A stretch of DNA of 64,000 nucleotides from a virus. The stretch spans positions 159,269 through 223,268 of IMG/VR virus record IMGVR_UViG_3300020172_006270. One strand, 5' to 3'. Shown here in pieces: positions 5,974-46,869 of the stretch. The translations under genes were made by a program, and so were the position numbers. The notes under the pieces were generated by a model, which searched no databases, was not told the DNA's origin, and saw only the letters and a list, made by a program, of their open reading frames with translations. The number at the start of each line of letters is the position of its first letter. Position 1 is the first letter of the stretch.

Positions 5974-6230
5974 CCCGCCATTCCGTCTCTAATGCCAACT
6001 ATTACTTTGTCATTTTTAACGGAATAGGCAATTTCGCACCAATCTGAATCCTTGGCAGGATTGTATTTGTGCTTCGCTCTAACCGCCTGGAGAGCCGCTT
6101 TTTCGTATTTTTGCACTATTGCGAGTGCCGCACGCAGTTTTTCAGATTCTTCTCTCGTAATCTCAATGGAGACGTTGGTTAATCCCCAAACTACTCCACT
6201 AGGACCACGTTCGACGCTTTCAAGTTTCAT
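5970..6230 (-). CDS. Unknown 86-aa protein coupled to gdh
   Basis: 86 aa, with a beta segment (SGVVWGLTNVSIEIT), a long helix (about residues 28-55) and a closing beta segment (KVIVGIRDGM). Its ATG overlaps the stop of glutamate dehydrogenase as ATGA, so it is translated with it. There is no transmembrane segment. The function is unknown; the coupling is the only hint of a link to the dehydrogenase. Confidence 0.7.
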   Translation of the reverse strand: MKLESVERGPSGVVWGLTNVSIEITREESEKLRAALAIVQKYEKAALQAVRAKHKYNPAKDSDWCEIAYSVKNDKVIVGIRDGMAG

Positions 6231-7492
6231 CTCTGGAAATATCCCTTGTTGCCCAAGCAGGCGTTCGCTGCATTGATTCGCTTCAAAGCTAAGACATATG
6301 CTGCTGTCCGAGCAGAAATATCGTGCTTCATATGCAAGGCGATTACTTTCTCGGTTGCATATACCATCATCTCTCGTAAATCATGATCGACCTCTGGCAA
6401 TGTGCGGCTGATCGCAGTTCGGTTTTGAAGCCATTCAAAATAGCTGACTACAACACCACCAGCGTTAGCCAGAATATCGGGAATCACTAACACTCCACGA
6501 TCATTGAGAATTGCATCAGCCTCATTTGTGGTAGGGCCGTTGGCCATTTCCAAGATCACCTTTGCTTTGATCTTGTCTGCATTGTTAATGGTGATGACGT
6601 TCTCAACAGCAGATGGAGCCAATACGTCAATATCGAGGGACCACAATTCTTCATTGGTGATCTTATCGCCGTCGCCCCATTCTTTGCCACCACTCTCATC
6701 GAGGGACTTGCGGCACGCCGATACATTGAGTCCGTGTTCATTATATGAACCACCAAACTCATTGGTCAGGGCCACCACCTTCAATCCAGAACGGAAGCAT
6801 TTCTCGGCCAACCAATATCCTACCTTTCCGAATCCTTGAATTGCAATTCGGATGTCTTCTGGGTTAGACGGGATATTCACTTTGCTGATACTGTTGTTGA
6901 GAACATTTTCCAGAACGTAATATCCACCATATCCGGTGGCAGAACTTCTGCCTTCAATGCCGCCCAGGGCAACTGGTTTTCCAGTGACAATATCCTTTGG
7001 GTGTCCACCTTTGATTCTTTTATATTCGGAGTACATCCACCCCATGATTCGTTCGTCGGTGTACAAGTCAGGCGCAGGCACATCGACATCAGGACCGATA
7101 AAGTCGATCATGGATGCGATATATGCTTTGCTGAGTCGTTCCAATTCACGGTGCGATAATTTTGTCGCATCAACGCAAATACCGCCTTTGGCACCACCAT
7201 ATGGCAATTTTAAGCACGCACATTTGAACGTCATCCACAGGGCAAGAGCCTCGCAGTGGTCAGCATCTACAGATGGATGGTAACGAATGCCGCCCTTTGC
7301 CGGGCCAAGAGTTGTGTCGTATTGGCATCTAAATGCCTGATACATTTTGAGAGTCCCGTCATCATGTCGCATTGGGATTGTGACATTCAGGGTCTTTTGT
7401 GGATATTGAAGTCGCTGCCAGCTTTCATCATCAATTTCAGCAAATTTATAGGCAGCATCAAGTTGTTTTTTGGCTTCTTCTAACATCGACAT
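6227..7492 (-). CDS. gdhA: NAD(P)-dependent glutamate dehydrogenase
   Basis: 421 aa, the usual length for hexameric Glu/Leu/Phe/Val dehydrogenases. Visible signatures are the catalytic-lysine motif LPYGGAKGGI (about residue 98-107), a Rossmann region IAIQGFGKVGYW, and DVLAPSAVENVI and LANAGGVVVSYFEW near the end. It interconverts glutamate with 2-oxoglutarate plus ammonia. The gene is complete with no visible damage, so it is likely functional, and it is an unusual auxiliary metabolic gene for a phage. A hairpin that covers the ribosome binding site precedes it (7500-7551). A second in-frame ATG lies two codons in. Confidence 0.95.
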   Translation of the reverse strand: MSMLEEAKKQLDAAYKFAEIDDESWQRLQYPQKTLNVTIPMRHDDGTLKMYQAFRCQYDTTLGPAKGGIRYHPSVDADHCEALALWMTFKCACLKLPYGGAKGGICVDATKLSHRELERLSKAYIASMIDFIGPDVDVPAPDLYTDERIMGWMYSEYKRIKGGHPKDIVTGKPVALGGIEGRSSATGYGGYYVLENVLNNSISKVNIPSNPEDIRIAIQGFGKVGYWLAEKCFRSGLKVVALTNEFGGSYNEHGLNVSACRKSLDESGGKEWGDGDKITNEELWSLDIDVLAPSAVENVITINNADKIKAKVILEMANGPTTNEADAILNDRGVLVIPDILANAGGVVVSYFEWLQNRTAISRTLPEVDHDLREMMVYATEKVIALHMKHDISARTAAYVLALKRINAANACLGNKGYFQR

Positions 7493-8756: not shown

Positions 8757-10298
8757 ATGAGAACATTTACTGAAAGCCTACAAGTCACCACCAATCTCAG
8801 AATGGCCAAAGAATCATTCATTCTGATGTCCGAGCGTGGAGTTGACCCTAATGATTTTGTCGAGTGGTACACAACCGATGGAATCGGCATACAAGACCAG
8901 GGCTTGCTTGTAGAAGCATCCGAAGAATGGTTAGAAGGCCAAATCGCCAACTGGTTTAGAGACTATGCTGGTCAAAAGGGATTAGGCAAAGCTACCAATG
9001 CACTCGCCACAGGAATTGGTGGTGCTGCTGGTGCTGGCTTAGAAACGGCTAAAGGACTCGGTGGTGCCGCAGTTGATAATGCAACTGCTGCTGCCAATAG
9101 AGTTGGTGGGGCATTCAAGGCTGTAACAGGTTGGGGCAATAATCCCGCTCCTGCTTCTCCCGCAGGAGGCTCTGGCACTCCTGGTGGCAATCCCGGTGCT
9201 GCTCAACCACAAGCACAAGCACAAGCACAAGCACAAGCACAACCTCAAGCTCCTGAGCCTGCTTATGCACAACATGCCAAGAATGCGGCGACCGCAGTTG
9301 ACGCACTTTCTAAGCGTATGTCTAAGTCTAAATCGTTGATGGAAAAACTTGGCGGTCCATCTTTCCAAGCGGTAGTTGTTAATTTACTGAATATGCTCAA
9401 GAATCCATCTAATATGGTTCAAGCTGCTCCACAAGCAACTCCACAAGCACCAGCAAGTTCTAGTGCTGACACACCATCTTTTGAGTCAACTGGCTTCGGC
9501 AATTTCACTCGCAAGATTAGACTTCATAATGAAATCAAGACTGGTCTGCGAACTCTTCAACAACATAACATTGATCCTGTCAAGTTTGTTGATTGGTATA
9601 TCGAAGAAGGACAATACCTCAATGAAGGTATGTTTGATGGGGTAAAAGACTGGTTTGGTCGTCAATGGGCTAATGCTAAGGGTGCGTGGGGTCAATGGGG
9701 CAAGGCTGGTGACGAATATCAGGCCCAGAAAGATCAGGGTCGTGATAACGACGCTATTCAGCAAGCAATGCACGCCTTGGGCGAACTTGAAAAGGGAATG
9801 GGAGGCAGTCAGCCAGCAGAAGATTTTGCTGCTGTATTGAAGCAAGTTCAAGCAGGCTTGAATCAAGCATCACAGGCTCCGGCTGCTCCTGAATCACCAG
9901 CCGCCACTCCTGAAGCTGCTCCTGAAGCTGCTCCTGAAGCTGCTCCTGAATCACCAGCCGCCACTCCTGAAACACCTGCTCCATTTGATCCACTACAGTC
10001 ATACATGAAAGAATTGTTGAATGTCTCTAGTGCTGATCCTAAGACCATTCAATCCGAAGTACCAAAGATTATGGACTTTGCCAAGAAAGCAGGAGTCGAT
10101 CAAAACCAATTGTTGTCTCAACTGAAGGCACAGGGAATTGATCTCAAGAAATTGGGATTACCAGAACCAACTTACACTCCACCTTCAGAAGAAGAGTGGA
10201 TGAATGCAGTTCACGGTGGCGCAAACACACCGAGCTTTGAGAATAGAGTTCGTAGTGGAATGCCATTGTTCTTTGAGTATCTTAAACGGCGTGCTTAA
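8757..10298 (+). CDS. Repeat-containing 513-aa protein, candidate internal virion protein
   Basis: 513 aa, beginning MRTFTESLQV. A module D-P-x-x-F-V-x-W-Y followed by a helix ending in W-F-x-x-x-x-A occurs twice, near residues 30-75 and 270-320, and related helical segments flank it. The modules are joined by low-complexity linkers: Gln-Ala repeats near residue 150 and Pro-Glu-Ala-Ala repeats near residue 385. A Gly/Ala-rich amphipathic stretch lies near residue 80-110. No enzyme motif is seen. Modular, linker-rich proteins of this size fit internal head or scaffold-associated roles, but that is inference. It ends convergently inside the transaminase gene by 17 bases. Confidence 0.75.
   Translation: MRTFTESLQVTTNLRMAKESFILMSERGVDPNDFVEWYTTDGIGIQDQGLLVEASEEWLEGQIANWFRDYAGQKGLGKATNALATGIGGAAGAGLETAKGLGGAAVDNATAAANRVGGAFKAVTGWGNNPAPASPAGGSGTPGGNPGAAQPQAQAQAQAQAQPQAPEPAYAQHAKNAATAVDALSKRMSKSKSLMEKLGGPSFQAVVVNLLNMLKNPSNMVQAAPQATPQAPASSSADTPSFESTGFGNFTRKIRLHNEIKTGLRTLQQHNIDPVKFVDWYIEEGQYLNEGMFDGVKDWFGRQWANAKGAWGQWGKAGDEYQAQKDQGRDNDAIQQAMHALGELEKGMGGSQPAEDFAAVLKQVQAGLNQASQAPAAPESPAATPEAAPEAAPEAAPESPAATPETPAPFDPLQSYMKELLNVSSADPKTIQSEVPKIMDFAKKAGVDQNQLLSQLKAQGIDLKKLGLPEPTYTPPSEEEWMNAVHGGANTPSFENRVRSGMPLFFEYLKRRA
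9208..9242 (+). repeat. CACAAG hexanucleotide tandem repeat
   Basis: About six copies of CACAAG encode a Gln-Ala run in the 513-aa protein. The identical codons suggest slippage-prone expansion. Confidence 0.9.
9882..9972 (+). repeat. Pro-Glu-Ala-Ala coding tandem repeats
   Basis: Three consecutive 12-base units of the type GCTCCTGAAGCT are flanked on both sides by a longer near-identical unit encoding PESPAATPE. They form a flexible linker of the 513-aa protein. Confidence 0.85.
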
Positions 10299-11541
10299 TG
10301 ATTTCGATGGCCTCGTCTACGTCGGCCATTGAGAATATCAAATGTGGTCTTAATCGAATTGACCGTTCTCCGCAAGGCAGGACGGTCATTCTTTTTAGTA
10401 GGTTATCTAAGACCGCATTGCGTGCTTCAGGCGTCTCTAAGTCAAACGCCAGCATCAATCCCTTGCCACGAACATTAGTGATGCGTGGAACCGTGAGAAG
10501 CTGCTTCAAGAAGTAGTCGCCTACTATGGCGACCCGATTCAGAATGTCGTCTTCCTTCATGATCTGAGCTATGTGCGTGAATCGGATCATGTCAATAATG
10601 TTGCCGCCCCACGTCGAGTTGATACGACTGGACTGCTTGAATACATTATCGGGAACTTCATCAATACGGGTGGTAGAAGCGAAACCACAGACCTGCGCTT
10701 TCTTCCCGAACGCTATCATATCTGGCCGCAGCCCGGCATGATGTTCGTAGGCCCATGTTGTCCCGGTCAAACCTACGCCGGTTTGAACTTCATCAAGTAT
10801 GAGCATAGCTTCATACTCAAAGGCCATTTTACGCAGGGCTGCAAAGTATTCGGAAGAAAAGTGGTTATCACCCCCTTCGCCTTGAATGGTTTCCAGAATA
10901 ATTGCGGCCACACGGTTTGTCTTGAGAGCGTCTTCTGCTTGTCGCAGCGAGAGTTCTTCGACCACCGTGGTTTCGCTTTCCACCAACGGGAAGTGTATCT
11001 TTGGATTCTTTATTCTGCTCCAATTGAATTTGGGGAACAAGGCAGTCTTATTTGCGAATGTATTGGTTAAAGAGAGTGTGTATCCGCTACGACCGTGGAA
11101 TGCTTGTTCCAGGTGTACGACATCTAGCGAATTAGCGTCGGCTTCGCTGAGGCCGAGTTTCTTCATCTTCCAATCAAATGCTGCTTTCAGGGCATTCTCT
11201 ACGCCCAGGGTGCCGCCTTCGACAAAGAAGAAATGATTGAAGTCTGGTGCAATACCTGCAAACGTATGGACGAACTCAGCCAATGGAACGCTGTAGTAGT
11301 CTGAGTTGGCAATTTTGTGGACAGCATACAGATTGATGCTTTCCATTTTTTCTTTTAGTTTGGGATGGTTCCATCCCAGGGGCATACTTGCGAATTGCGA
11401 GGAGCAATCAAGAAAAGGTTGTCCGGTTTTGGCGTCAACCAAGTGGGTGCCGAAACTTTTTTCAAAATCAATGACAATAGGCTCACCATCGCCGATGGTG
11501 TGTCTTTTCATGACATCATGTACTTGGTCCGGTCTAAACAT
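10282..11541 (-). CDS. lat: L-lysine 6-transaminase-like class III aminotransferase
   Basis: 419 aa, full length for PLP-dependent class III aminotransferases. The PLP lysine lies in MIAFGKKAQVCGF, preceded by the LILDEVQTGVG aspartate that contacts the PLP ring nitrogen. The SQFASMPLGWNHPKL start, HGRSGYTLSLTN and INSTWGGN segments match lysine 6-transaminase (LAT) more than ornithine or GABA transaminases. The reaction moves the epsilon-amino group of lysine to 2-oxoglutarate, giving glutamate and aminoadipate semialdehyde. Together with the Gdh here it could turn lysine nitrogen into ammonia while recycling 2-oxoglutarate. The DUF3307 gene upstream overlaps its start by 8 bases. Confidence 0.88.
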   Translation of the reverse strand: MFRPDQVHDVMKRHTIGDGEPIVIDFEKSFGTHLVDAKTGQPFLDCSSQFASMPLGWNHPKLKEKMESINLYAVHKIANSDYYSVPLAEFVHTFAGIAPDFNHFFFVEGGTLGVENALKAAFDWKMKKLGLSEADANSLDVVHLEQAFHGRSGYTLSLTNTFANKTALFPKFNWSRIKNPKIHFPLVESETTVVEELSLRQAEDALKTNRVAAIILETIQGEGGDNHFSSEYFAALRKMAFEYEAMLILDEVQTGVGLTGTTWAYEHHAGLRPDMIAFGKKAQVCGFASTTRIDEVPDNVFKQSSRINSTWGGNIIDMIRFTHIAQIMKEDDILNRVAIVGDYFLKQLLTVPRITNVRGKGLMLAFDLETPEARNAVLDNLLKRMTVLPCGERSIRLRPHLIFSMADVDEAIEIIKHAV

Positions 11542-32587: not shown

Positions 32588-32835
32588 CGCTTGGCGTACC
32601 AAAATTGATGAGCTTTCTTGAGGATGTCCTCGGAAAGCTCAAAGCCGCACATATCGCCAACAACTGAATCCACGCCGCATAGCGGACAGATCACAGTTTT
32701 GTCATTGTCGGTATAGTCTTTAATTTCCGTCACGTTGAAAATCTTCAAACAGTGAAAACAACCGGCGTTAGTGGATTGCTCCACTAACTGCCGGTTTTTC
32801 ATTGCTAACGTGGGGAATTGTGTGATTCCTGTCAT
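32584..32835 (-). CDS. Small zinc-ribbon protein after the portal gene
   Basis: 83 aa. CFHC near residue 26 and CPLC near residue 50 form a four-cysteine zinc ribbon in the pattern AGCFHCLKIF...VICPLCGVDSV, which is widespread in small cytoplasmic bacterial and phage proteins of unknown function. The start overlaps the portal stop as TAATG, so it is made together with the portal. The C-terminal end is helical. Confidence 0.75.
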   Translation of the reverse strand: MTGITQFPTLAMKNRQLVEQSTNAGCFHCLKIFNVTEIKDYTDNDKTVICPLCGVDSVVGDMCGFELSEDILKKAHQFWYAKR

Positions 32836-35378
32836 TAACCCTCGTCGCCTACGCTATAGTCGATGTCTTCTCGGTCCTGCTCGGCTTCGTAGTCTTGAAT
32901 CTCAAGATCATACTTCTTGATGTCCTCTCCATCTGGCTCTGGAATATTCGCACCTTCAGGTGCCTTCGAGCCTGGATCAGCATCGGGCGTTTCATCTGCC
33001 CCAGAAGCCGTCGCCGTTGGTGGAGGAGGAGCGCCTGCCCCACCGCCTGCTGCCGCCATTGGATCACCGCCTGCCATCGGATCAGGCGACATGCCCGGTC
33101 CACCCGGTTCGGTTCCAAGTTCTCCCTGACCACCGCCTGCATCAGCCCCAGGAATGCCCACGCCCAATAGCTGTGGATTTTGTGCCAATACTTGCAGTTT
33201 GAGGTCTTCCAGCTTTTGCAACTTCAGACGTGCCAACATTTCGTCAGCTTCGTCTTCAGAAAACTTCAATATCTTTGTGACAATATCATAGTCAGCCATA
33301 AGCTGACCACTCTTTAACGTGCCAGCATTAGTATAGCGGGCCGTAACCACTTCCGCACGGGACAGTTCCCGCCAATCCGAAGGAGCCGTCATCTTGATCT
33401 TCAAGTCTTGATAGCTTTCTTCAGGATACCCTCTTAAATGCAAGTGGTGTTCTGCCATTTCCAGGATTCCATCCTCGAAGTGACTTTGCAGCCGCTCAAT
33501 CATGCGAGCGAATTTAACGTCTTGAGCAGACAAAGTAATTCTTGTCGCTCCTGGGTCTTCATTATTGAAATAGTTCTTCGGGAAATTCAAGCTGGTCAAC
33601 AACTTGTTTCTGAAGTAAACGGCGTCATCAATTTCACCCAGGTTTTCTGCACCCGGCAAAGTATCAATACGAGTGTTGCTATTTGGTCGAATTGGTAGCC
33701 AATAGTCCTCGTCCTGAGCAGGTGGTTGCCAGCGTTCTTCTACAGAATTCGCCCCAGGTGTTCCACGACCACTTGTAACCTTACGCTTGCGGAATTGATC
33801 CTTTAGTCGATCAATAAATGCTTCAGCCTTGAATGGAGGAAGCTGTCCAACGTCAATATAGAATACACGACGTTCTGGCGCACGGGTGAGTCGATAGACC
33901 ACCATTGCGTCTTCCATCAATCTCAAGCTGTGTGCCGGTCCACGGGCCGGTTCGATCAAGCTCTGGCCATACGGATAGAATGTCTTGCGATCATCGCCGA
34001 TTCGGAAGTGAACGATCTGACTCGGAGCGAACCGAATGGCTGTCGTCTGATTCAATTCCATTTCATTCTGGCCGGTGACTGGTCCCCGCACGATGGCCTG
34101 ATAATCGGGGCCTTCTTTACTTTGTTGGTACTCGATCATCTTGCCCTTCACCGTCTCAATGCGATACATCGTTTCGGGAGGCAATGGCATAGCCCGATAA
34201 ATGCCCTCTTTGGGATTGTCCGGGTTGATTACCATTTCAACGAACCAGTCTCCAGCAATGCACAGGTTCTTAAACCATGTCCAACCCTGTCGGTTCATAT
34301 TGAGCATCTTGCGATGCAACAACAGGAATTCTACTTCTTCACGGATTTCATCGTTGGCCGTAAGCACCTTGAAGATATTGCCATCTTCATCTTTTTGACA
34401 ATTGTGCAGGATCACAGAATCCGTGGCGAAGCATTTGTGTCCTTCAACTGAGATGTCGTAAACATCTTGCTCTGGTCCTTCCTCAACGCCTATGACTCTA
34501 CGGCGATCTTCATGCTTGTACAGAGTTCTAATCTCTGCTGGCGTGAAACCTTCTTTCTTGACCCAGCCATCTATTGATGACCAATCAAAATCCAGTTTTT
34601 TGGCAATTTGACGGGTGGTTAGTCCACCACCAATCATGCGAATCACCCTATTCACTTTTTCATATGCAGGGTTGCTTTTGCCAGTTTTCCAGTCGTCAAC
34701 AAATTGACGTTCGCTGATCCAGCCCTTCGTGAAGGTGAATAGGCGAGGAAATTGTTTATGTTTGAGTTCAGATGCCGCTGACAACCGATAGAATGGCATC
34801 AATTCGTCACCGAACCGAAGTTCTCCAGTTTCTACCCATGTTCCATCTTTCTTCAGAACACGATGATCTGAAGTAGCGGTGAACTTTGTCCCATTGTCCA
34901 TGACAATAGTTGTAGTTTTAGCTCGTTTGACGAGTCGTGGGGCGAAAGCCCAACCCAGGTTGTAGTCTTTTTTCTGGGCGTCATAACAGTAAACCAAAAA
35001 TCGTTCTTCGGCTCTCTTCTCTGCTAACTCTTTTATGGTAGTGAACCCGAACGGCGTAGCGATCTTAGTGTCACCGGCAACGCAGGCTTCGTCAGCAAAG
35101 ACCGTCATTGCCATTTCGATTTCCGGGACATTACGCAGACGCTCATACTCTTTATACCGCATGGAGCGGTTGGATAGAGTCGTCGTGTCGATCATGTCGT
35201 TGGTTTGACGGTAGCTTGTTTGGCCACCCGGTCCACCACCGCTTTGAAAATCCGTCCCTAGAGCTTCTGGTTGCGCAATACCAGCAGTCCCGAAGTTCTT
35301 AGGGTCTTTACGAGCCGACAGAGGGTCTTTCTCTGTGGCGTATGCGAACAATTTGAAAAAGTCTGACCAAAGTGGCAT
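32835..35378 (-). CDS. Portal protein (T4 gp20-like) interrupted by an intein
   Basis: 847 aa precursor. The exteins (residues 1-98 and 327-847) form a 619-aa gp20-like portal: PEIEMAMTVFADEA before the insertion, then VEFLLLHRKMLNMNRQGWTWF, PPETMYRIE, RAPERRVFYIDVGQLP and RITLSAQDVKFARMIERLQ, as in T4-type portals. The C-terminus is Gly/Pro- and Asp/Glu-rich. Residues 99-326 are an intein (separate entry). The portal is the dodecameric DNA entry vertex, so virion production would depend on splicing. It heads the minus-strand head module. Confidence 0.92.
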   Translation of the reverse strand: MPLWSDFFKLFAYATEKDPLSARKDPKNFGTAGIAQPEALGTDFQSGGGPGGQTSYRQTNDMIDTTTLSNRSMRYKEYERLRNVPEIEMAMTVFADEACVAGDTKIATPFGFTTIKELAEKRAEERFLVYCYDAQKKDYNLGWAFAPRLVKRAKTTTIVMDNGTKFTATSDHRVLKKDGTWVETGELRFGDELMPFYRLSAASELKHKQFPRLFTFTKGWISERQFVDDWKTGKSNPAYEKVNRVIRMIGGGLTTRQIAKKLDFDWSSIDGWVKKEGFTPAEIRTLYKHEDRRRVIGVEEGPEQDVYDISVEGHKCFATDSVILHNCQKDEDGNIFKVLTANDEIREEVEFLLLHRKMLNMNRQGWTWFKNLCIAGDWFVEMVINPDNPKEGIYRAMPLPPETMYRIETVKGKMIEYQQSKEGPDYQAIVRGPVTGQNEMELNQTTAIRFAPSQIVHFRIGDDRKTFYPYGQSLIEPARGPAHSLRLMEDAMVVYRLTRAPERRVFYIDVGQLPPFKAEAFIDRLKDQFRKRKVTSGRGTPGANSVEERWQPPAQDEDYWLPIRPNSNTRIDTLPGAENLGEIDDAVYFRNKLLTSLNFPKNYFNNEDPGATRITLSAQDVKFARMIERLQSHFEDGILEMAEHHLHLRGYPEESYQDLKIKMTAPSDWRELSRAEVVTARYTNAGTLKSGQLMADYDIVTKILKFSEDEADEMLARLKLQKLEDLKLQVLAQNPQLLGVGIPGADAGGGQGELGTEPGGPGMSPDPMAGGDPMAAAGGGAGAPPPPTATASGADETPDADPGSKAPEGANIPEPDGEDIKKYDLEIQDYEAEQDREDIDYSVGDEG
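34401..35084 (-). other. Intein inside the portal protein (228 residues, no visible LAGLIDADG domain)
   Basis: It starts with Cys99 in block A (CVAGDTKIATPFG), has block B FTATSDHRVL with the conserved T-x-x-H, and ends with block F VYDISVEGHKCFATDSVILH and terminal His-Asn, followed by Cys327 as the +1 nucleophile. All splicing residues are present. The region between blocks B and F (about 100 residues) has no LAGLIDADG or HNH motif but contains GGLTTRQIAKKLDFDWSSID, a helix-turn-helix-like segment. It is thus a mini-intein with a DNA-binding-like insert, inserted at a conserved portal site. Confidence 0.9.
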
Positions 35379-35465: not shown

Positions 35466-36077
35466 ATGAAGAAAATACTTTTCGTTTGCAGCCATCTACA
35501 TTCGGGTTCTTCTGCGTTATGTGACGCATTAAATCACCATCCTCGGATTCAGGGTTACAACTTAGCGGCTCGCAGTCCGTATGTTGGACCACCGAATCTA
35601 TTGACACTCACAGAGCAGCATCATAAGTTAGATAATCGGTCGGCAATTTACATGGATGAATTGCTTCATAATCATCACCTTTCAACGAAGGCAGCTTATA
35701 AAGAGTGTAAGTTCATCTATGTTGTGAGAGAACCTGCTGCTGTTTTGAATTTATTGATCGGTAATGAAAAAATGAAACCGTCCTTCGCCGTTAGGTATTA
35801 CACCTATCGACTCAGACGGTTGTGCGAGATGGCCAAGCGAACGCCTGGGGCTGTATTGTTGACTTGGGACGATTTAGTGGAGAATCGAGGAATTCCGCTG
35901 ATTGAAGATTACTTGAATCTCCGTCAGCCTATTTCCTACGACCCTACATCTTTGGCTCCCTTCAAAAGAACTTATTCTACCGATCTTGTCGGCTTGCAGT
36001 TACGCTCGAAAGTGGAAGATACCTACCAACGATACCTGTATTACCTGAAAAATCAAAATCTTCATTATTGGTCTTAA
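35466..36077 (+). CDS. Sulfotransferase-like protein
   Basis: 203 aa from the ATG at 35466 (AAAGGA upstream). The N-terminal ILFVCSHLHSGSSALCDAL resembles the 5'-phosphosulfate loop of PAPS-dependent sulfotransferases, and KFIYVVREPAAVLNLL resembles the 3'-phosphate loop with R-x-P. It is shorter than most family members (about 250-300 aa) and lacks an obvious catalytic histidine near the loop. It could modify surface glycans. Its 3' end overlaps the M14 peptidase gene on the other strand by 101 bases. Confidence 0.6.
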   Translation: MKKILFVCSHLHSGSSALCDALNHHPRIQGYNLAARSPYVGPPNLLTLTEQHHKLDNRSAIYMDELLHNHHLSTKAAYKECKFIYVVREPAAVLNLLIGNEKMKPSFAVRYYTYRLRRLCEMAKRTPGAVLLTWDDLVENRGIPLIEDYLNLRQPISYDPTSLAPFKRTYSTDLVGLQLRSKVEDTYQRYLYYLKNQNLHYWS

Positions 36078-37044
36078 TTGGCAATACTGGAGCTTCCTTG
36101 ATAAACCACAATACACCAGTCCAAGTTCGAGAGTATTCGCTCACGATTTCCTCTCGTGTAGGGTTTCTTTGGTGTGTTCCAAATTCCATAACAACTGCAA
36201 ATGCACCATTGCGATAATACCAGTCTACTTCGCTGCCATGAATGGGTCGGCCATACATATTGCAGGCACGATCCATTCTGTAGTCACACATCTTTCCCAT
36301 TTGTCCAACGATACGCTGGTAGTCAGCCTCGTTAGGACATTTTTGATTCGTGTCTCCGAACGGAGTTAAAAAGATGCGACCGAAAGTGTGTCCTGAAATG
36401 ACAGCGTTGGGTTTAATCTTTAAGAAGAAATCCTGTAGAGCTTGAATGCTAGGCGTCGATTTGTAAGTGGGACGGGACGGACCAGGGAAGTCACGATTAG
36501 GGTCAACTCCATCAACGTGGCGGCTGTGTGGATAACTGTCAGGAGAAACAACTGGAATGATGTAAATGTCTCTGGACTCAATCAAATCGGTAATTTCTTT
36601 GTTCTTCCCATAGCCAGCCAGGAGATTACCTGCGTAAGCCATGACGCAACCTGTGGACCAAGGTTCATTTCCGTGAATACAACCAGTGATAAGAACTCGT
36701 GGGCGATCTTTTACTTCAATTTTGTTGCATATTCTGATGTAACAAATATCAACGCCTCTTTTTGTTTTGCCATAGAATCCAACATCTGTTAGATCAGGCG
36801 CTTCTTCTTGCCATTTTTGAACTTGGTTTATAACTTCTGAATAGCTTAAATGCGGCGGTACTTGAACAGTAATGTTCGGCAAGCGTGGAGTTTTGGGTGG
36901 CTCAGGAATAACTTCAACAGGCGGTTGAACCTGAGTGATTGGTTGTGTCTGCAATTCACGATTATTGCGTGTTTTGACGTTGAATGCGACAAATAGGGCT
37001 AATGTGAGAACTCCTACGGCCCAACCTAAATTGAATCCTTTCAT
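35977..37044 (-). CDS. Membrane-anchored M14 zinc carboxypeptidase
   Basis: 355 aa. One N-terminal membrane segment (LGWAVGVLTLALFVAF) and a Pro/Val/Glu-rich stalk (to about residue 60) precede an M14 domain: zinc ligands in TGCIHGNEPW (H-x-x-E) and SGHTFGRIF (His), substrate arginine in VDPNRDFPG, and catalytic glutamate in VVMEFGTH. All key residues are present. The layout places the enzyme in the periplasm, where M14 enzymes can trim peptidoglycan peptides or proteins. Its C-terminal 30 codons overlap the convergent sulfotransferase-like gene. Confidence 0.9.
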   Translation of the reverse strand: MKGFNLGWAVGVLTLALFVAFNVKTRNNRELQTQPITQVQPPVEVIPEPPKTPRLPNITVQVPPHLSYSEVINQVQKWQEEAPDLTDVGFYGKTKRGVDICYIRICNKIEVKDRPRVLITGCIHGNEPWSTGCVMAYAGNLLAGYGKNKEITDLIESRDIYIIPVVSPDSYPHSRHVDGVDPNRDFPGPSRPTYKSTPSIQALQDFFLKIKPNAVISGHTFGRIFLTPFGDTNQKCPNEADYQRIVGQMGKMCDYRMDRACNMYGRPIHGSEVDWYYRNGAFAVVMEFGTHQRNPTREEIVSEYSRTWTGVLWFIKEAPVLPIKTNNEDFDFSGNTGIVGRYLPLSSVTASRQDR

Positions 37045-38776: not shown

Positions 38777-39136
38777 TTACTCGTCATCGTCGTCATCATC
38801 GTCATCGTCGAAGTCATCATCATCGTCGTCATCGTCGTCGTCCCAATCGTCATCGTCGTAGTCGTCGTCTTCATCATCGTCGTCATCGAGATCATCCTCG
38901 TCGTCGTCATCTTCATCTTCATCCCAATCGTCATCGAGGTCGTCATCGTCCTCGTCGTCATCGAGATCGTCATCGTCTAAATCATCATCGTCGTCGTCCT
39001 CGTCGTCGTCATCGTCGTCTTCGAGGTCGTCATCTTCCCAATCTTCGTCATCATCGAGGTCGTCCTGGGCAAAGACAATACGATCCTCTTCAATATCGAA
39101 ATCGAGTTCACAATCGCTATAGTACAGGCCGCTCAT
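38777..39136 (-). CDS. Asp-rich acidic low-complexity protein
   Basis: 119 aa from the ATG at 39136 (AAGGAG upstream). About 30 ordinary residues (MSGLYYSDCELDFDIEED, then IVFAQ) are followed by some 85 residues consisting almost only of Asp with some Glu, and a few Trp, Leu and Tyr. The charge is extremely negative. Such proteins can bind calcium or basic proteins, or mimic DNA. Codons alternate GAT and GAC, so it is not a simple recent slippage product. It is divergent from the lipoprotein gene at 39189. Confidence 0.75.
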   Translation of the reverse strand: MSGLYYSDCELDFDIEEDRIVFAQDDLDDDEDWEDDDLEDDDDDDEDDDDDDLDDDDLDDDEDDDDLDDDWDEDEDDDDEDDLDDDDDEDDDYDDDDWDDDDDDDDDDFDDDDDDDDDE

Positions 39137-39188
39137 GGGTATTCTCCTTTTTTGATGGTGACGGCAATACATATCATAGGAGGAGCCT

Positions 39189-39620
39189 ATGAAAAAACTA
39201 CTGCTTTTTGCGTCTTTATGTTTACCAATTTTTGCAGGTTGCACCGCAGCCCCATTGCTTATCAGCCCAATTGTGACGGGTGTAATCATGTGGAAAGACG
39301 GTGAAGCTCACAAATATTATAACGAGGAAGCCCATACTCTGTATCGGGCTACGAAAACATCTTTGAAAGAATTGGATCATCCAATTATCAAAGAGGAACC
39401 CTACAGGGACGGCGGCTACTATATCGTTGCTGGTGAAGGTGATAAATTCAAGATCACCATCCGACAAGTAAAGCCGCACATCACTGAGGTCAAAATTCGC
39501 ATAAACTTCATGGGCGACAAGCCTTATGCGGAGTTGGTGTATCGCCAAATTGACTCAAACACCAACACCATCGACTTTGATGACCAAGGTAAACCAACAA
39601 AACGTAAACAAAGACGGTAA
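39189..39620 (+). CDS. Lipoprotein (DUF3568-like)
   Basis: 143 aa. ATAGGAGGAG precedes the ATG. The signal peptide ends in a clear lipobox, LPIFAGC, so the protein is lipid-modified at Cys18 and attached to a membrane. The mature part begins with a hydrophobic segment (PLLISPIVTGVIMW) and continues as a beta-rich domain with GDKFKITIRQVKPHITEVKI, like DUF3568 lipoproteins of bacteria. Phage lipoproteins sometimes block superinfection; that role is only a possibility here. Confidence 0.8.
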   Translation: MKKLLLFASLCLPIFAGCTAAPLLISPIVTGVIMWKDGEAHKYYNEEAHTLYRATKTSLKELDHPIIKEEPYRDGGYYIVAGEGDKFKITIRQVKPHITEVKIRINFMGDKPYAELVYRQIDSNTNTIDFDDQGKPTKRKQRR

Positions 39621-45647: not shown

Positions 45648-46775
45648 TTAATCCTTGTGAAAATGTACATCTTTGTGTCCGTGATCGTGCGTGTATTCCA
45701 TCTCCCGGAATCCACCATAATTGAACGATGGCTTGGTATCTGAATTGACGACTTTCCACGTCAATTCAAATCCATACTTTGCTACCTTCTCAATGCCAGA
45801 GAAATTGATTTTATCTGCTGTATCTCTCGGCGTGTGATAATTGTCGTGCATTCCAGTGTGCAAGAACGCAATTGGAACCTTCTTATTGTAGAAGCAAGCG
45901 TGATCGCTGCCACCACTGCTACGGCCTGTAATGCTCTTAGCAAATGAGTATTTTCCACTCAATTCCCCAATGATGCTCGACACGTCAGGAGAGCTTTCCC
46001 CTTCGTTGAAGGCAACGGCAGTGCGAGCTTTGCCCAAATATCCAACCATATCCATATTGAGCATGAATATATGCTTGCGAATATTGGGGTCGCCTTTCGG
46101 GAAAATAGGGTTGTCGCAATAATATCGTGACCCAATTAACCCCATTTCCTCGGCACTAAAAGACATAAAGACCACGGTTCTTTTGTTCTGACCACGCAGA
46201 GACGCAAAGGTTTTGGCTATTTGAAGCAAAGCCACCGTCCCTGAAGCGTTATCGTCAGCCCCAGGGTGAATTTTCCCGCCACCCGACCGGCTCATGGCTG
46301 GTCCCCAGCCAATGTGGTCCATGTGTGCGCCAACAACTACGATCTCATCTTTTAATTCGGTGCCTTCAATCCAGGCAATGATATTCTGCGTGAAATCATC
46401 ACCAGTTTCATTGTTCGGCCCAGGATTCATTCTTTTGATATTGAACTTTTGATATGCCGTATCGAGGCCGAAACTTTCATATATCTTTTTCAGATAATCG
46501 GCAGCGACAACATTTCCTTTTTTGCCCGACATTCGACCTTCAAGCTCGGCAGAACACAAATATTCTAAATGTTTTTGCAATTCGCTTTCAGATATATCTG
46601 CGATGGCTTCATCATAAGTCTTTTTGCGTGGCGGGTCCACGTCAGGTGGCGGCAAAGGCTCGACCGGAGGAACGAATTCTTCTTGAACAATGGGCGGCGG
46701 GACATCACGTTTGCTGATATACACAGCAAGCAAAATGATTCCCAGCGACAGTACAACGAGAGGGAGCTTACGCAT
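45648..46775 (-). CDS. Membrane-anchored M28 zinc aminopeptidase
   Basis: 375 aa from the ATG at 46775. An N-terminal membrane segment (LPLVVLSLGIILLAVYI) and Pro/Glu stalk (PPPIVQEEFVPPVEPLPPP) precede an M28 domain with all zinc ligands and catalytic residues: VGAHMDHIG, HPGADDNASG, FSAEEMGLIG, NMDMVGYLG and MHDNYHTPRD. The end is His-rich (THDHGHKDVHFHKD), possibly metal-binding. It should act in the periplasm on peptides. It belongs to the same unit as the ferritin-like and CYTH genes. Confidence 0.93.
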   Translation of the reverse strand: MRKLPLVVLSLGIILLAVYISKRDVPPPIVQEEFVPPVEPLPPPDVDPPRKKTYDEAIADISESELQKHLEYLCSAELEGRMSGKKGNVVAADYLKKIYESFGLDTAYQKFNIKRMNPGPNNETGDDFTQNIIAWIEGTELKDEIVVVGAHMDHIGWGPAMSRSGGGKIHPGADDNASGTVALLQIAKTFASLRGQNKRTVVFMSFSAEEMGLIGSRYYCDNPIFPKGDPNIRKHIFMLNMDMVGYLGKARTAVAFNEGESSPDVSSIIGELSGKYSFAKSITGRSSGGSDHACFYNKKVPIAFLHTGMHDNYHTPRDTADKINFSGIEKVAKYGFELTWKVVNSDTKPSFNYGGFREMEYTHDHGHKDVHFHKD

Positions 46776-46869
46776 GGCAAACCCTGTTTTATTAGTGTGT
46801 TGGCTATATATTCTGTCCAAACAACCTACAAGGAAGCGAGGACTCCAACTTAATTAGAAAAGGAATATA

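Follow-up and report, generated by a model that had tools for sequence, protein, structure and literature searches.

According to the homing-cycle model, an intein without an endonuclease decays and is then lost (PMC8966425). The portal gene of a huge phage known from a 223,268-base viral record raises the question of what kind of intein can persist in an essential gene without a nuclease, and how. The window analysed here, a 64,000-nucleotide part of that record, contains an 847-aa open reading frame (32835-35378, minus strand) that encodes a T4-type portal with an intein inside. The frame matches the Portal_T4 family (PF07230, 6.8e-76), and the portion downstream of the intein matches the solved T4 gp20 structure (PDB 3ja7, 4.5e-32), which together identify the host protein as a gp20-type portal. 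The intein occupies portal residues 99-326 and spans 684 nt, or 228 codons. The remaining extein residues (98 + 521) add up to 619 aa, the size of the predicted spliced portal. A sequence-only reading of this DNA had placed a mini-intein in the T4-type portal, and its boundaries proved exact (Table 1).

Table 1. Features of the portal gene and its intein; a slash within a motif marks the insertion point.
Feature	Position in the window	Strand	Basis
N-extein, portal residues 1-98, ending ...TVFADEA	35085-35378	-	Gapless across the junction against intein-free portals
Intein, 228 aa, Cys1 to Asn228	34401-35084	-	PF14890, TIGR01445, AlphaFold model, PDB intein matches
N-terminal splicing domain, intein residues 1-100 (blocks A, N2, B, N4)	34785-35084	-	Profile match to solved inteins; conservation
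Insert, intein residues 101-194, putative HNH homing endonuclease remnant	34503-34784	-	Insert profile matches HNH inteins
Beta-hairpin and helix (QFPRLFTFTKGWISERQFVDDWKT, intein residues 111-134), corresponding to GWVSEHRLIAEW, which precedes the HNH catalytic motif	34683-34754	-	Alignment to HNH inteins
HTH-like three-helix segment, intein residues 139-177	34554-34670	-	HTH profile matches and model
C-terminal splicing domain, intein residues 195-228 (blocks F, G)	34401-34502	-	TIGR and solved-intein profile matches
C-extein, 521 aa, T4 gp20 homologue, first residue is the nucleophile Cys+1 (CQKDEDG)	32838-34400	-	PF07230, 3ja7
Site b, VVYRL/TRAPERR, empty in the window; holds a 395-430 aa LAGLIDADG intein in relatives	33887-33888	-	
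Site a' counterpart, 15 codons upstream of site a, empty in the window; holds a full-length HNH intein in distant T4-like portals	35129-35130	-	
Predicted portal junction peptides: spliced tryptic NVPEIEMAMTVFADEACQK; unspliced NVPEIEMAMTVFADEACVAGDTK			

Several other genes of the window were recorded alongside the portal. A zinc carboxypeptidase of family M14 (35977-37044, minus strand, 1.8e-27) and an M28 peptidase (45648-46820, minus strand, 3.4e-40) adjoin or lie near structural genes, and an open reading frame at 38777-39289 (minus strand) ends in a very long acidic tract, mostly aspartate, over roughly its last 100 residues. The window also encodes a glutamate dehydrogenase (6227-7492, minus strand; ELFV_dehydrog, 7.6e-61), a metabolic gene uncommon in phages, and near it a class-III aminotransferase (10282-11541, minus strand, 1.4e-76); these two possibly form a small cluster for amino-acid metabolism.

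The identity of the insertion as an intein is carried by sequence, fold and junction. It scores 50.5 bits against Pfam Intein_splicing, above the cut-off of 35.8, and exceeds the cut-off of the N-terminal intein model TIGR01445; it is the sole Intein_splicing match in the 223,268-base record. The splicing blocks that the sequence-only reading had listed are all present: Cys1, a TxxH motif (T71-x-D73-H74), the terminal His227-Asn228 and Cys+1. Among 90 distinct relatives, Cys1 and the HN pair are found in 90 and T-x-D-H in 89, and Cys+1 occurs in 73 of 73 members of an earlier, smaller set. An AlphaFold model computed from an alignment of 51 relatives, with LR756511 left out, has a Hint fold (mean pLDDT 95.6), and its best matches in the PDB are inteins, among them NpuDnaB (4o1r, TMt 0.84) and Mtu RecA (2imz, TMt 0.86). 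The exteins join without a gap when compared with intein-free portals (DEA/CQKDEDGN against, for example, DDG/TQKTITGN). With these splicing residues, the Hint fold and an in-frame position from which it can be taken out to give an uninterrupted host protein, the insertion has the features of a class 1 cis-splicing intein, and it is predicted to splice itself out of the portal without leaving residues behind. The rival view, a portal-specific domain that is retained in the mature protein, is extremely improbable given the invariant Cys1, TxxH, HN and Cys+1, the Hint fold and the ungapped join.

The insert between the two splicing domains had been described as a helix-turn-helix (HTH) standing in place of a homing endonuclease, with no LAGLIDADG or HNH motif. 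The latter part of this description is borne out: an intact motif of either kind is found in none of the 90 distinct mini-inteins, and the window intein has no such Pfam match. It is thus a mini-intein in the sense of having no functional endonuclease domain, and it is larger than a Hint core of about 130-170 aa, the family measuring 228-235 aa with a conserved insert of 95-101 aa. An HTH-like segment is likewise present. Its sequence signal is weak in the window (HTH_28, E 0.0088) and better in relatives (HTH_23, best 2e-4), and the model places a helical bundle there (helices 139-152, 157-164 and 168-177). What did not stand is the idea of a replacement. The earlier reading had missed residues 111-134, where a hairpin and a helix show homology to the N-terminal portion of an HNH nuclease, and the insert as a whole resembles an HNH endonuclease from which the catalytic core is gone.

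This relationship emerged from T4-like portals in metagenomes. Searched with a profile of the family to which the window intein belongs, the portal reading frames of L200 and L230 reach 154 and 119 bits, and their inteins (377 and 379 aa) show homology to the window intein along both splicing halves as well as the insert. In both, the HNH nuclease is complete (GWVSEHRLIAEW...VHHINFKKWDNRPENLKIMSAADHLAYH) and two HTH-like repeats come after it; the L230 intein exceeds the HNH_3 cut-off. A scan with these two inteins found 80 loci, 65 of them complete inteins of the right size, at EMEx/TPEI in the portal. A profile built from the insert alone finds 60 of these 65 HNH inteins, with a best value of 8e-8; inserts that had been shuffled gave no match to the HNH profile. 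A regular expression for the HNH motif missed some of the HNH inteins, and in ten that were inspected the motif is intact. The window insert retains GWISERQFVDDWKTG and a single HTH; that is, the upstream hairpin-helix and one HTH remain, and it lacks the catalytic core as well as the other HTH repeat. The His-Asn-His core is absent from all 90 relatives. Judged by this homology, the insert is the remains of an HNH homing endonuclease with its catalytic core deleted. The exact deletion junction is ambiguous, as EKVNR has two possible partners in the alignment, EHVHH and the beginning of the HTH. Parsimony favours descent of the mini form from the HNH form over the opposite course. A full-length ancestor would have to be placed at exactly site a, the insertion point of the window intein, whereas full-length HNH relatives are found only 15 codons away.

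The HNH inteins of these portals (for example L200, L230 and L250-L314) are the closest known counterparts of the window intein, with homologous splicing halves, the hairpin-helix and HTH, and the same region of the host protein. They differ in having the full HNH core, an extra HTH repeat, a length of 370-381 aa and an insertion point 15 codons upstream (EMEA/TPEI). They also have closely related portals that are free of the intein (L199, L228), unlike the site-a family. Further insertions were seen in T4-like portals. L216 carries an HNH intein at GEIA/SAID and another intein with DOD-type motifs at RSVYGH/SVLE, and L258, L273, L286, L289, L290 and L309 apparently have more than one large insertion, some with two intein-profile matches. 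The N-terminal motif of the portal looks like a hot spot for inteins, where insertions fall at three or more distinct points in a stretch of about 15 codons.

At site a, the intein appears to be fixed. Altogether, 91 distinct intein DNA sequences (90 proteins) were collected, all of 228-235 aa, none with a nuclease and no site empty. Comparison of the insertion site with related phages, a check proposed in the sequence-only reading, finds all 91 at the same position. When only loci collected by extein-based patterns are counted, the intein is present in every distinct portal whose two flanks both lie on the contig (38 of 38). One of these patterns, CQKDE, starts at the Cys that the intein requires and may under-sample intein-free members with another residue there; the patterns INPxNPK, NLGEIDD and PERRVFY are free of this bias. 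Searches of viral contigs with intein or portal queries, and of phage, plasmid and genome collections, revealed no site-a allele that lacks the intein or bears a nuclease, the single hit in the plasmid collection being a gyrB record (31% over 44% of the query). Among the carriers are contigs of 341-533 kb (L046, L051, L071) and the 595-kb phage LR756511, and portal identity across carriers falls to about 57% in the first C-extein segment. Portals lying immediately beyond the clade (L179-L188, roughly 34-42% identical to it along most of the segment compared) have no intein. The remark that inteins are not commonly reported in T4-type portals applies to GenBank phages, where a portal match was obtained in 2504 records and the intein in LR756511 alone; it fails for metagenomic phages, in which portal inteins are frequent and occupy several sites. 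One locus, L407, has the same portal with both inteins, those of sites a and b, on a contig of 77 kb that was assigned to a Neisseriaceae MAG (GTDB). It is presumably phage sequence that was mis-binned, and gives at best a weak hint of the host.

The histories of portal and intein agree. In trees of 72 portals and their inteins, 29 of 30 strongly supported portal splits are common to both and no strong conflict occurs; the correlation of portal and intein distances (Mantel r) is 0.80, and 999 permutations yield no value above 0.23. Since the two trees are congruent, no transfer between lineages is visible. The pattern expected of a mobile intein, which is patchy occurrence, empty alleles and an incongruent phylogeny, is therefore not that of site a. 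It is the pattern of site b, whose LAGLIDADG intein occurs in 15 of 88 distinct lineages with 10 changes on the portal tree and is sporadic among close relatives. This second intein (395-430 aa, LAGLIDADG_3) was seen in L005, L009, L012, L059, L061, L064, L065, L067, L070, L126 and others.

An intein that has lost its own nuclease may still be moved in trans, either by a free-standing endonuclease or through co-conversion driven by the LAGLIDADG intein at site b. The latter lies 171 codons (513 nt) downstream and is present in the 15 lineages just mentioned, which makes such a route conceivable. Against it, site b is empty in most site-a carriers, the HNH core is absent near 142 mini-intein loci, and the window's own 223-kb record has no HNH, HNH_3 or LAGLIDADG_3 match and no free-standing HNH or LAGLIDADG nuclease. 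The agreement of the trees argues in the same direction, with the limit that short-range co-conversion taking flanking portal sequence along would escape this test. Mobility in trans is on balance improbable.

Loss of the nuclease has not released the insert from constraint. All-pairs estimates of dN/dS were dropped on account of saturation between distant pairs, and disjoint close pairs were used instead; the ratio pooled over 18 such pairs stands at 0.082 in the insert, compared with 0.059 in the splicing part and 0.041 in the portal C-extein segment. Purifying selection acts on the insert, which on these figures could reflect a structural as well as a regulatory role. Its length stays within 95-101 aa across all 90 proteins. 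The HNH-derived hairpin and helix are its most conserved portion, with mean entropies of 1.07 and 0.86 bits against 1.2 in the splicing domain. The HTH is variable (2.0-2.4 bits), most of all in the recognition helix (2.4 bits), although the segment is net basic in 90 of 90 sequences (mean +5.3). The HTH was considered as the conserved functional element of the insert and rejected, conservation lying in the hairpin-helix. From its dN/dS, length and entropy it follows that the stump is not junk, and that its conserved part is the former shoulder of the nuclease and not the DNA-reading surface. The same constraint disfavours the view that the intein is a young neutral relic, in which the endonuclease disappeared only recently and drift is carrying the insert towards loss. 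Such decay after fixation is what the homing-cycle model predicts (PMC8966425); with portals diverged to about 57% identity and an insert held at near-constant length with a dN/dS of 0.08, it is a very unlikely account of this family.

Taken with the anatomy, fixation and congruent trees described above, the insert constraint makes it probable that the site-a element is an immobile, vertically inherited class 1-type cis-splicing intein, retained by the need to splice, in which the stump likely serves folding or splicing. Its ancestor would have been an HNH homing-endonuclease intein of a kind still present in other T4-like portals. A deletion, probably a single ancestral event, would have removed the His-Asn-His core and one HTH repeat, leaving the hairpin-helix and the last HTH bundle. 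Mobility would have ended with the nuclease, and the intein would afterwards have passed by vertical descent, together with the portal, to a varied clade of phages that takes in huge phages. In the window, it is expected to fold as a Hint domain together with the stump, to leave the 847-aa precursor and to join the 619-aa portal. In an essential gene, only an exact deletion or continued efficient splicing would be harmless, and the intein would thus persist. The stump probably became structurally needed for Hint folding or splicing. This role is suggested because in other inteins removal of the endonuclease domain impaired splicing, a dependence on the endonuclease (HEN) scaffold that has been termed 'mutualism' (PMC8966425).

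A different use of the same parts would be a domesticated regulatory intein, in which the stump and HTH make portal splicing conditional on redox state, DNA or scaffold contact and so time prohead initiation in the huge-phage clade; a timing role in prohead formation had been raised in the sequence-only reading. There is a precedent in the DnaB protein of M. smegmatis, where a responsive HEN-less intein stands beside a mobile HEN-bearing one (PMC6195587), and the facts that a nuclease-free intein is completely fixed, that its insert evolves under purifying selection and that the HTH is uniformly basic would all fit. So would Cys33 (VYCYD; 34986-34988, minus strand), which is 97% conserved in the site-a family and usually Ala in the HNH relatives, making it a possible redox-sensitive residue. 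The recognition helix, however, is the least conserved part, and retention can be explained without any benefit. Conditional splicing is for these reasons rather unlikely; if it were true, the dodecameric portal that starts head assembly would be released only at the right time or place.

The immobile intein favoured here can be set beside several known systems. DnaBi1 and DnaBi2 of M. smegmatis are, as in the portal, HEN-less and HEN-bearing inteins at separate sites of one gene; DnaBi1, however, is a mini-intein whose host is a bacterial helicase and whose response to stress has been demonstrated (PMC6195587), while the window intein retains an HNH relic, resides in a phage portal and is known from sequence. 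TliVMA and PhoVMA share with it an HTH-like DNA-contact domain and decay of the endonuclease, and differ in having LAGLIDADG nucleases, an archaeal ATPase as host and an HTH that is an accessory domain (PMC8966425). The profile of the RtcB intein family NF052663 aligns over the whole 228 aa (40.7 bits) and is of similar length; its host protein is RtcB. Inteins in mycobacteriophage cluster C1 also reside in a phage portal, described as orthologue group POG1190, and were known before (PMC5050341), as were inteins in general, endonuclease decay, the homing cycle and accessory HTH domains (PMC8966425). A paper on huge phages (PMC7162821) leaves inteins unmentioned in its main text. In openly licensed papers, a scope that makes this weak evidence, no description was found of the site-a portal intein family or its fixation, nor of the HNH counterpart 15 codons away.

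For the annotation of huge-phage portals, the intein must be taken into account, and the roughly 90 natural sequences of inteins with a large insert are usable for protein engineering. In one essential gene and across many lineages, a fixed, vertically inherited intein without a nuclease exists beside a nuclease-bearing one that comes and goes, and the HNH versions 15 codons away reveal what the intein at site a has lost. The portal is thus a natural, internally controlled test of why immobile inteins persist and of whether endonuclease remnants become necessary for splicing.
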